This document shows, piece after piece, positions 14,686 to 26,531 of a DNA stretch of 36,608 nt (position 1 is the stretch's first letter; every line of letters starts with the position of its first letter). Both the position numbers and the translations under genes were made by a program. This DNA comes from Defluviicoccus sp. (GTDB taxonomy: Bacteria > Pseudomonadota > Alphaproteobacteria > MPNO01). Below the pieces are notes generated by a model. It saw only the letters and a program-made list of their open reading frames with translations. It did not search any database and was not told where the DNA came from. Where the stretch lies: assembly GCA_022823775.1 (NCBI GenBank), contig JAJEHI010000182.1, positions 1 through 36,608 of the forward strand, written 5' to 3'.

Positions 14686-16338
14686 GTGACGACTTCATAT
14701 CCGGCCTTCGGTCTCCAAAGCCGCAGGGCGCTCTACGCCGGGGTGAGGGTGCTCGCGGACGCGGTGCGCGTAACGCTCGGACCCGCGGGGCGCGCGGTAC
14801 TGATCGAGGAGGACGGCAAGCCGCCGTTCTTCACCCGCGACGGCGCCCGCGTGGGGCAGGCAATGGAGCTTGCCGACAGGTTCGCGGATATGGGGGCGCG
14901 GCTGGTCCGCGGCGTGGCCGCGCGCACCGCCGAGGAGGCGGGGGACGGCCGGACCACCGCTACGGTCGTCGCGGCCGCGCTGATCGAAGAAGGGATCAAG
15001 GCCGTCGCGGCGGGCGCGGATCCGGCCGAGTTGAAGCGCGGCATCGACCGCGGCGTGCTCGCCGTGCTCGATACCCTTTGCCGGTCCGCGCGCCCGGTGG
15101 AACCCGGCGATACGCTCGCGAGGATCGCGACGCTGGCCGCGAACGGCGATACGGAGATCGGGTGGATCGCCGCCGAAGCGGTCGCGGCGACGGGCGCCGA
15201 AGGCGTCGTCGATGTCGAGGACGGCCACGGCCGGGGCGTCGAATACGAGATCGTCACCGGCGTGCGCTTCGACCAGGGCTATGTGTCGCCCTACTTCATG
15301 ACCGATCCGGAGACTCTGCTCTGCACCTATGACGAGCCGTTGATCCTGCTCCATGACGGGAAGCTCGACCGTCACGAACCCCTGCTCGGGCTGCTGGAAG
15401 CCGCGGTTCGGATGCGCCGCCCGCTGGCGATCGTGGCCGAGGCGGTGGAAGGCGAGGCGCTCCAGACGCTGACGACGAACAAGGTCAGGGGCGGCCTCAG
15501 GCTGGTCGCGGCCAGGGCCCCCCATTTCGGCGACCGCCGGCGCGCCGCTCTCGAGGATGCGGCCGTGCTGACCGGCGCCACCGTCATCGCCGATGACAAG
15601 GGGCTTGCCCTGCGGAATGCCGGCCCTGGCCTCCTCGGCGGCGCCCGGCGCACGGTGATCTCCGGCAGCGAGACCCTGTTCGTCGAAGGCGCCGGCGAGC
15701 CGGCGGCGATCGAGAACCGCCGGCACGAGATACGCAACGCGATTGCCGCGGCCAGGACCGACTACGACCGCGAGCTGCTGACCGAGCGTCTCGCGCGGAT
15801 CTCAGGCGGGGTCGCGTCGATCGGGGTCGGCGGCGATTCGGAGGCGGAAATCGCCGCCCGCTCCGAAAGCGCACGCACGGCCGCCCGCGCCGCCCGCGCG
15901 GCGCTTGCCAACGGCGTCGTGGCCGGCGGAGGCGCCGCGCTGCTGCACGCCGCGAGGGTCCTCGACCGCGCGGCCTCCGGCCCCCACGCGCGCCTCGTGT
16001 TGCGGGCGGGACTCGCCGCGCCGCTCCGCCAGATCGCCGACAACGCCGGACATGACGGCAGGGCGATCGCCGCCCGGTTGGCCGAGATGGACGATCCGGA
16101 ACGCGGATTCGACGCGATCGCCGGCGAGATCAGGGACATGAGCGCCGCGGGCATAAGCGATCCGCTCGACGTGATTTCGGCCGCGCTGCGCCACGCCGCT
16201 TCCGTGGCGGGAATGGTCCTCACCGCCGAGGCGGCGCTCGCCAGGCCGCCCGCCCCGCCATCCGGCGAGCCGGAAGGTTTCGGTCCGACCACGCCCGATT
16301 TTCGCGCAGACGAACTCGAGGGGCTGGGCCTTGCCTGA
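14686..16338 (+). CDS. Divergent GroEL/Hsp60 paralogue with altered ATPase residues
   Basis: 550 residues from GTG 14686; the N-terminus aligns with GroEL without gaps (VLADAVRVTLGPAGR matches GroEL 22-36). Equatorial, intermediate and apical domains are all present: RDG with Asp52, EAGDGRTTATV with Asp87, GYVSPYF in the apical domain, PLRQIADNAG near the end. Key changes against E. coli GroEL are Asp398 to Thr398 (codon 15877-15879), Lys51 to Arg, Thr89 to Arg, and Val263/Val264 of the apical substrate groove to Thr/Thr. The C-terminal Gly-Gly-Met tail is missing; the end is GFGPTTPDFRADELEGLGLA. No groES lies nearby. It sits inside a ring-cleavage operon, which recalls the dedicated GroEL-like MimG that helps a diiron monooxygenase fold in actinobacteria. 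A pathway-dedicated chaperone with weak ATPase is my inference. Confidence 0.93.
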   Translation: MTTSYPAFGLQSRRALYAGVRVLADAVRVTLGPAGRAVLIEEDGKPPFFTRDGARVGQAMELADRFADMGARLVRGVAARTAEEAGDGRTTATVVAAALIEEGIKAVAAGADPAELKRGIDRGVLAVLDTLCRSARPVEPGDTLARIATLAANGDTEIGWIAAEAVAATGAEGVVDVEDGHGRGVEYEIVTGVRFDQGYVSPYFMTDPETLLCTYDEPLILLHDGKLDRHEPLLGLLEAAVRMRRPLAIVAEAVEGEALQTLTTNKVRGGLRLVAARAPHFGDRRRAALEDAAVLTGATVIADDKGLALRNAGPGLLGGARRTVISGSETLFVEGAGEPAAIENRRHEIRNAIAAARTDYDRELLTERLARISGGVASIGVGGDSEAEIAARSESARTAARAARAALANGVVAGGGAALLHAARVLDRAASGPHARLVLRAGLAAPLRQIADNAGHDGRAIAARLAEMDDPERGFDAIAGEIRDMSAAGISDPLDVISAALRHAASVAGMVLTAEAALARPPAPPSGEPEGFGPTTPDFRADELEGLGLA

Positions 16339-23879: not shown

Positions 23880-23974
23880 GGCCGCGTTCCTCTCTCAAGA
23901 GATCGACGAGGGGGGTTAACCCTCCCGCCGGGCCGTTGCAAGCCGTATAATGGCCGGCATCGATCGGAGGGCCG

Positions 23975-24565
23975 ATGCGCAGTCCGGCTATCGCAACGCT
24001 TCTCGCCTTCGCGCTGTTCGCCGTGACGCTCGTCCCGGACGCGCGCGCGGCGGGCGCCGTGGACGAGCGGCTCGACGGGCCGGCGGTAGGTGCGCGGGTG
24101 GGCGAGCTGGTCGTTGCCACGGACCAGACCGGGACGGCGCGGGACTTCCGCTCGCTGCGCGGCAAGAAGGGGCTGATCCTCCTGTTCTCGCGCTCCTTCG
24201 ACTGGTGACCCTTCTGCAAGAACCAGGCGGTCGCCTGGAACCGGCATCTGGAAGAGATCGGGGCGCTGGGCTACGGGCTCGCGGCGGTCACCTATGACGG
24301 GGTGCCCGTGCTGGAACGCTTCGCCGGCCGGTCCGGGATCGGCTATCCCCTCCTTTCCGACGAGGGATCGAAGATCATCCAGGCATTCGACCTGCTCGAT
24401 CCGGGTCCCGCCCGATCGACCCCGTGGTACGGCATCGCCAAACCGATGATCGTGGTGATCGATGCCGACGGCGTGGTGCGTCAGCGCTTCTCGACGCAAG
24501 GCTACCGCGATCGGCCGGAAGCGGGCGCCGTGCTGCAGGCGATCCGGAGCCGCGCCGGGTCCTGA
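23975..24565 (+). CDS. Periplasmic thioredoxin/peroxiredoxin-like protein with in-frame TGA at the redox Cys: probable selenoprotein (U-x-x-C)
   Basis: 196 residues if TGA 24206-24208 (codon 78) is read as selenocysteine. ATG 23975 has a GGAGG site five bases upstream. Residues 1-25 form a signal peptide (MRSPAIATLLAFALFAVTLV, cleavage near DARA). Then comes a redoxin fold: LRGKKGLILLFSRSFDW, the TGA, PFCKNQAVAWNRHLEEIGALG, GIGYPLLSDEGSKIIQAFDLL, and KPMIVVIDADGVVRQRFS. Cys homologues of this AhpC/TSA-like group have DWCPFCK or DWCPYCK here, so the TGA sits precisely on the first catalytic Cys, giving U-P-F-C. The frame is intact on both sides with no other lesion. A hairpin of SECIS type starts 14 bases after the TGA. 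Role: periplasmic thiol peroxidase or disulfide oxidoreductase (family inference). A pseudogene or sequencing error is the alternative. Confidence 0.82.
24209..24254 (+). promoter_or_regulatory. SECIS-like stem-loop downstream of the in-frame TGA
   Basis: A perfect six-pair stem CCAGGC/GCCTGG (24223-24228 with 24233-24238) carries the four-base loop GGTC at 24229-24232, with G in the first two positions as in bacterial selenocysteine insertion elements such as that of fdhF. The loop starts 20 bases after the TGA, within the range reported for bacterial elements (about 16-37). An imperfect lower stem extends it: CTTC 24211-24214 with GAAG 24251-24254 and TGC 24215-24217 with GCA 24244-24246, with an internal loop between. 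It lies inside the coding sequence, as bacterial SECIS elements do. Confidence 0.65.
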
Positions 24566-25522: not shown

Positions 25523-25948
25523 TCAGAGTCGGGTCCCACTTCGATCTGAGACCCGCGACGCCACTTCCTCGGCCGCCCGGATCAGCGCCTCCACCAAGTT
25601 TTCGTCAACATCGATCACGCCTTCGTACTCGGCGAGATTCCTTTTGCGATGCGCCTGATCGAGCACACGCCAATTCTCGTTGGGGAGACCGACCGTGTGC
25701 TCCAGGCATTGGAAGACCAGATAACGATTCTTGGCCCGAAAACCGGCTTTCCGCAGTGCCGCCAGCGACAAGGCATGCGCGGCGTTGTAGGCCAGATCGA
25801 ACCGTGACTCGGGGCTGAGCTCCGCATTCTTCGCGTCCGCGAGTCGGGCGGTTCCAGAACGAATCAGTCCCGATACTTCGTCGCGTGTCGACGCCTCTGT
25901 CTTCAACAGGCCACGCGCGGCGAGATTGTCCAGATGCTCATTCGCCAT
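25523..25948 (-). CDS. HEPN-domain protein (SAV_6107-like), probable toxin partner of the adjacent nucleotidyltransferase
   Basis: 141 residues from ATG 25948. The all-helical HEPN pattern is seen, with RFDLAYNAAHALSLAALRKAGFR (49-71) as the second helix, LEHTVGL, and the catalytic-type motif in AHRKRNLAEYEG (99-110). Classical HEPN RNases have R-x4-6-H; here it is R103-N104 followed by Tyr108, as I recall for SAV_6107-type HEPN proteins. In MntA-HepT modules the HEPN member is the RNase toxin and the nucleotidyltransferase AMPylates and silences it. Its start overlaps the end of the nucleotidyltransferase gene by 11 bases, a toxin-antitoxin arrangement. Whether it is toxic is unproven. Confidence 0.75.
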   Translation of the reverse strand: MANEHLDNLAARGLLKTEASTRDEVSGLIRSGTARLADAKNAELSPESRFDLAYNAAHALSLAALRKAGFRAKNRYLVFQCLEHTVGLPNENWRVLDQAHRKRNLAEYEGVIDVDENLVEALIRAAEEVASRVSDRSGTRL

Positions 25949-26531
25949 CGAGGTTTCCCGCGACGACGATATGCGGCCCTTGCAGGATGCGGGTCAGAAA
26001 CCCGGCCCCGGTCCGGCGCCGCTCCTCGAACTCGACCGGCGTGTAGATCGTGGGGTTCACGCGCCGGCCGAGCAGGTCTTCCAACGGCGCCATGGCGGTA
26101 TAGACCGTCTCCAGCGTCAGGTCGTCGGAGACGAGCAGCAGATCCACGTCGCTGGCCGCCGTCTCCGTTCCCCGGGCGACCGATCCGAACAACAGGGCCA
26201 GGACGATTCTGCCGGCCAACGGTTCCAGCGCGCCTCGAACCGCCTCTTCCAGGCCGACGGTCTTGCGGACGATGCCACAAATCTCGTCGAAGAGAGGCGA
26301 TTCGGGGTTCGCCCGGTAATGCTTGCGGTTGCCGACGCGGGAGACGGAGGCGAGACCGCTTCCGGCGAGCCGGGCCAGCTCCCGTTGCACCGCTCCGCGC
26401 CCCGACCCCGCCAGCGCGATGAGCTCGGTGACATAGAATTCCCGTTCCGGCTGCCCGAAGAGCAGCGCGAGCACGCGTTGCTGCGTCGAGGTGAACAACG
26501 CGTTGGCGAGTGTCGAACCCTCTGTACCCAT
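25938..26531 (-). CDS. Winged-helix-nucleotidyltransferase fusion (MNT-type antitoxin/regulator)
   Basis: 197 residues from ATG 26531. Residues about 8-75 are a winged helix-turn-helix of MarR/ArsR type (FTSTQQRVLALLFGQPEREF, then GAVQRELARLAGSGL and VGNRKHYRAN). The second part is a minimal nucleotidyltransferase: LLFGSVARGTETAASDVDLLLV with Gly116-Ser117 and the metal-binding Asp128 and Asp130. It is the upstream member of the HEPN pair. By analogy with MntA it would transfer AMP to the HEPN partner's tyrosine, and the winged helix should bind the palindrome in its own promoter, giving autoregulation. The roles are inference; the domain calls are firm. Confidence 0.85.
   Translation of the reverse strand: MGTEGSTLANALFTSTQQRVLALLFGQPEREFYVTELIALAGSGRGAVQRELARLAGSGLASVSRVGNRKHYRANPESPLFDEICGIVRKTVGLEEAVRGALEPLAGRIVLALLFGSVARGTETAASDVDLLLVSDDLTLETVYTAMAPLEDLLGRRVNPTIYTPVEFEERRRTGAGFLTRILQGPHIVVAGNLDGE

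Follow-up and report, generated by a model that had tools for sequence, protein, structure and literature searches.

A gene for a peroxiredoxin-like protein in Defluviicoccus, a genus of the Rhodospirillales within the Alphaproteobacteria, is almost certainly a selenoprotein gene, the in-frame UGA at positions 24,206 to 24,208 being decoded as selenocysteine (Sec) under the direction of a downstream hairpin. The gene lies in the window, by which we mean the whole stretch of 36,608 nucleotides that was analyzed; it makes up contig C164 of a genome of 4.8 Mb, rated 100% complete and 4.75% contaminated. Comparison of homologous sequences gives strong support for Sec at this UGA. By its domain and motif, the gene appears to join the UxxC Prx-like selenoproteins, a group already known and catalogued since 2005.

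The Gene and Its Reading Frame

The gene, which encodes a Sec-containing Prx-like protein of the AhpC/TSA fold, occupies positions 23,975 to 24,565 of the forward strand, from an ATG start (23,975–23,977) to a TGA stop (24,563–24,565). Just upstream on the same strand, a GGAGG read directly at 23,966–23,970 is the likely ribosome-binding site. The original prediction of a single in-frame TGA, located between DW and PFCKNQ, agrees with the sequence and its translation: the 196-codon frame is interrupted only at 24,206–24,208 (+), that is, at codon 78. Comparison with homologues identifies this triplet as the Sec codon, which opens a U-P-F-C motif. In the read-through frame, residues 48–170 match the Pfam family PF00578 (AhpC-TSA, E 2.7e-19); PF08534 (Redoxin, E 4.6e-13) is also found, PF00578 scoring better. 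As the domain match covers residues on both sides of the TGA, the homology spans it. Moreover, dN/dS values of 0.13–0.28 were obtained 3' of the UGA when genus members were compared, indicating that the sequence beyond it is translated and performs a function. The Pfam match, the conservation within the genus, and this purifying selection together uphold the view that the redoxin frame is intact on both sides of the TGA. The gene's own terminator is also TGA; hence, UGA is not simply reassigned in the host.

Residues 1–25 (MRSPAIATLLAFALFAVTLVPDARA; 23,975–24,049, +) were recognized by eye as a signal-peptide region, with a hydrophobic stretch followed by ARA-A; the N-termini of homologues are similar, and AlphaFold places a low-confidence helix at residues 5–18. 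The product would thus have 196 residues, be exported to the periplasm, and carry the active site U78-P-F-C81.

UGA and Cysteine at Residue 78

UGA is present at codon 78 in all five genus members, the four others being 82–92% identical to the window gene. Eight further genes of the order, with 42–48% identity, read DW-UGA-PHC, except for one DW-UGA-GSC; the latter (L041), with GSC in place of UPxC, retains the hairpin. A search at E 1e-8 among 27 genomes of the order gave no Cys form. The wider search, in a class sample of 385, yielded nine UGA genes, including tandem pairs in three genomes. These tandem redoxin pairs (L044/L053, L045/L054, and L046/L055) belong to three genomes of one family (f106). 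More distant UGA forms were found in G117 (two) and G148 (one), and Cys forms in G192, G208, G342, and G161; gammaproteobacterial homologues also carry Cys at this site. Altogether, codon 78 is UGA in 22 genes (19 in one clade plus three distant ones) and Cys in eight other homologues. The proposed alignment at residue 78 thus gives Cys or UGA in other species, and the TGA does stand at the first position of a CxxC-type motif where homologues have Cys.

In a tree calculated with this site masked, the 19 UGA genes, from four families, form a single clade (support 98/99). The remaining three fall outside it, two of them next to Cys forms from gammaproteobacteria, which means that gain, or loss, of Sec occurred more than once. 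One sequence, L052, sits on a very long branch.

The possibility that the gene is a pseudogene, or that the TGA is a nonsense mutation or a misread TGC or TGT, was considered in the light of these data. Decayed copies do occur in the order: L042 (G024:C9) has a frameshift and several stops, W-UGA-PHCK being still visible, and L040 (G021:C140) has an additional in-frame TAG four codons 5' of the UGA. The random stops and frameshifts that would mark a decaying family are confined to these two. The same UGA, for its part, recurs across many independently assembled genomes, in 22 genes, selection is purifying 3' of it, and synonymous codons are frozen in the hairpin described below. Pseudogenization or sequencing error is therefore most improbable, and was rejected on the basis of the conservation of the UGA across genes.

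Selenocysteine Machinery

The search of the genome for selA, selB, selC, and selD found all four. Profile scores are 572 bits for selA, 457 bits for selB, and 311 bits for selD; the tRNA-Sec scores 75 bits and is called by ARAGORN as tRNA-SeC with anticodon tca. A single contig (C147) carries selA, selB, and selC. selD (L010, G000:C195:12824) lies within a 775-codon frame, the N-terminal half of which is NAD(P)/FAD oxidoreductase-like. Its motif CGGCGAK reads Cys, and the frame is a Cys form resembling the Ndh-SelD fusions (PMC2398784).

At the level of the order, selA was found in 25 of the 27 genomes. One of the two without a match, G008, has selB (446 bits); the other, G020, is 67% complete and gave no redoxin match. 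Beyond mere presence, selB follows the form of the redoxin. Six genomes with the UGA form were tested (G008, G233, G399, G322, G117, and G148), and each has a selB match above the cut-off; the four with the Cys form have none. In the proposed mechanism, Sec-tRNA-Sec bound by SelB would decode the UGA at 24,206–24,208.

A SECIS-Like Hairpin Downstream of the UGA

A bSECIS-like hairpin is found at 24,223–24,238 (+), made up of the stem CCAGGC/GCCTGG, which begins 14 nt after the UGA, and of the loop GGUC (24,229–24,232), 20 nt after the UGA. Published bSECIS criteria comprise a loop of 3–9 nt, a stem of 4–16 bp, a distance of 16–37 nt from the UGA, and an MFE <= -7.5, as well as a G in the first two loop positions (PMC13188914). 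With its 4-nt GGUC loop, its 6-bp stem, and its spacing of 20 nt, the hairpin conforms to this description; the hairpin folds at -10.1 kcal/mol and the 39-nt segment at -14.2 kcal/mol. These criteria are unspecific in the GC-rich window, since 434 of 3000 random positions (~14%) and 58 of 351 TGA triplets also pass. The hairpin on its own is thus poor evidence for Sec decoding, and it is the comparative evidence that carries the SECIS case. Single-sequence folding of the region is not significant (z -0.19), and an Rfam scan brought up no meaningful match to a known SECIS-like family. A synonymous redraw reached only ~0.05 for the window gene and was weaker for most other genes; for this reason, a comparative test was used.

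In 22 of 22 UGA genes, a hairpin with 5 bp or more is present at the same place; among eight Cys homologues, only one shows any hairpin, at -0.8 kcal/mol. In the 19-gene clade, 100% of the cells are paired vs. 37.5% in the Cys homologues. Stem codons are identical in 0.89–0.92 of same-residue pairs vs. 0.46–0.49 elsewhere; when the set is thinned to roughly a single locus for each genus, identity is 0.89 vs. 0.46, a value that random draws of columns never reached in 20,000 trials. Among genus members, some 105 nt surrounding the UGA, hairpin included, show one variable column. Changes in the stem across the clade are limited to one compensatory synonymous double change (L054, G-C to A-U) and two wobble changes, so that covariation within the clade amounts to this single double change. 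The distant Sec genes L047, L052, and L056 have different stem sequences with the same spacing. In the host's own genome, no other SECIS copy of the same kind with a TGA-interrupted frame was found. Taken with the conservation of the UGA, the hairpin at 24,223–24,238 would direct Sec insertion.

If a different tRNA (for Trp or Cys, or a near-cognate one) read through the UGA, translation of the region 3' of it would likewise be maintained. None of the tools gave a sign of such read-through, and it runs against several observations: UGA is a normal stop in the host, including at the end of the redoxin gene itself, residue 78 alternates with Cys alone, selB tracks the UGA form, and a SECIS-like hairpin lies downstream. 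We give this explanation very little credit compared with decoding as Sec.

Fold, Active Site, and Probable Reaction

AlphaFold predicts a peroxiredoxin fold with confidence (pLDDT 89.7). Among solved structures, BcpB, AhpE, and PrxQ come closest (Z about 21–23), a ResA-type oxidoreductase being lower in the Foldseek list; fold searches thus place peroxiredoxins ahead of thiol:disulfide oxidoreductases. In the phmmer alignment, residue 78 corresponds to the Thr of the PrxQ TxxC motif. Cys81 (TGC, 24,215–24,217, +), the partner of Sec78, is an invariant alignment column and aligns with the peroxidatic Cys. The catalytic Arg of PrxQ aligns with residue 156, which varies among homologues, and Pro157 is conserved in at least 90% of them; it could be the cis-proline of the thioredoxin fold. 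Hence, the protein has the fold of peroxiredoxins but neither the TxxC motif, Sec or Cys standing at the Thr position, nor the catalytic Arg.

The replacement of the TxxC threonine, the variability of the Arg position, and the conservation of Pro157 favor UxxC thiol:disulfide chemistry. Judging from its sequence, the protein most likely acts in the periplasm as a UxxC oxidoreductase of the thiol:disulfide (or peroxide) type, and its chemistry may be closer to that of thioredoxin/ResA on a peroxiredoxin scaffold than to that of a classical peroxiredoxin. In such a reaction, the selenol of Sec78 would be the attacking nucleophile and would pair with Cys81 as a selenenylsulfide.

Selenols are good peroxide nucleophiles. 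This property, the nearest solved folds (BcpB, AhpE, and PrxQ, Z ~22), and the peroxidatic position of Cys81 make it possible, at a lower probability, that the selenoprotein is a true peroxidase acting in oxidant defense and not a thiol:disulfide oxidoreductase. The replaced threonine and the non-conserved Arg position argue against a peroxidase, as does the fusion of the distant relative L052 to DsbD_N. In L052 (positions 1435–2655), a divergent UGA redoxin with its UGA in WUPPC is joined to a DsbD N-terminal domain, an arrangement that fits disulfide traffic. Oxidant defense is just one of the two roles that are likely for the protein.

Relationships With Known Selenoprotein Families

Work on the Sargasso Sea described UXXC “Prx-like” selenoproteins in 2005 (PMC1088965); in 2008 they were split into subfamilies, among them “Prx-like 1” and “Prx-like 3” (PMC2398784). 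Catalogues from 2022 and 2026 (PMC13188914, PMC9312934) contain Prx-like thiol:disulfide oxidoreductase selenoproteins (PF00578, UxxC/UxxU), with WP_010940744.1 as catalogue exemplar. Their listed carriers include Geobacter and other deltaproteobacteria (PMC1794560), as well as marine metagenome sequences. The window gene shares with them the PF00578 fold, UxxC for CxxC, and a predicted redox role; PF00578 is matched by 28 of 28 members, and UxxC is present. The clade differs from the listed carriers in being alphaproteobacterial and signal-peptide-bearing, the comparison being made by description. Also by description, a PF08534 match and UxxC are shared with the Redoxin family selenoprotein (PF08534, UxxC; PMC13188914).

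Other relatives are more remote. Sec-peroxiredoxin has the same peroxiredoxin fold, but its Sec is peroxidatic and stands in the last position of TxxU, whereas in the window protein Sec comes first and Cys last. The fold is likewise common to PrxQ/BCP and AhpE (Z about 20–22), of which the TxxC threonine and catalytic Arg are not kept here. Finally, the SelL-related redox protein model NF040769 gives a weak profile match (E 5.9e-7; 29.3 bits, far under the curated cut-off of 120), and 21 of 28 members match it at E 1e-5. No NCBIfam model is above its cut-off for the window family, and no paper in the literature searched combines Defluviicoccus with the word selenoprotein.

Genomic Neighborhood

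The gene is flanked by one for a beta-eliminating lyase and, downstream, by one that looks VOC-like by eye and has no Pfam match; these neighbors are conserved only within the genus. Comparison of conserved neighbors revealed no syntenic redox partner gene, and the window gene had no match on plasmids. A nucleotidyltransferase gene (PF18765/PF01909) with a small partner gene, MNT/HEPN-like by eye, occupies 25,523–26,531 (-); this pair is near the redoxin in some genus members only. Elsewhere in the window, a divergent GroEL-like protein (PF00118, 2.8e-57) is encoded at 14,686–16,338 (+) amid catabolic genes, with no obvious groES adjoining.

Selenocysteine Use in Alphaproteobacteria

In a 2006 survey, fdhA, adjoining selABC, was the sole alphaproteobacterial selenoprotein gene (PMC1794560). 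In the genome studied here, seven PF04879 matches were found, with no stop within any match and none on the selABC contig; the two that are formate-dehydrogenase-like (L076 and L077) have Cys at the Sec site. No Sec formate dehydrogenase was thus found among the PF04879 matches of this genome.

Sec use in Alphaproteobacteria therefore reaches past formate dehydrogenase. Gene callers that treat UGA solely as a stop split the window gene in two; as no NCBIfam model is available above cut-off either, the family may well be mis-annotated. The UGA and Cys forms, following selB, provide a natural Sec/Cys comparison set. More tentatively, these periplasmic UxxC redoxins, an alphaproteobacterial clade without a model until now, might be a main client of the Sec machinery of the lineage. 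If so, the clade would help to retain selABCD where formate dehydrogenases have Cys, and the SECIS would have shaped the protein sequence itself (QAVAWN for QLxxL).
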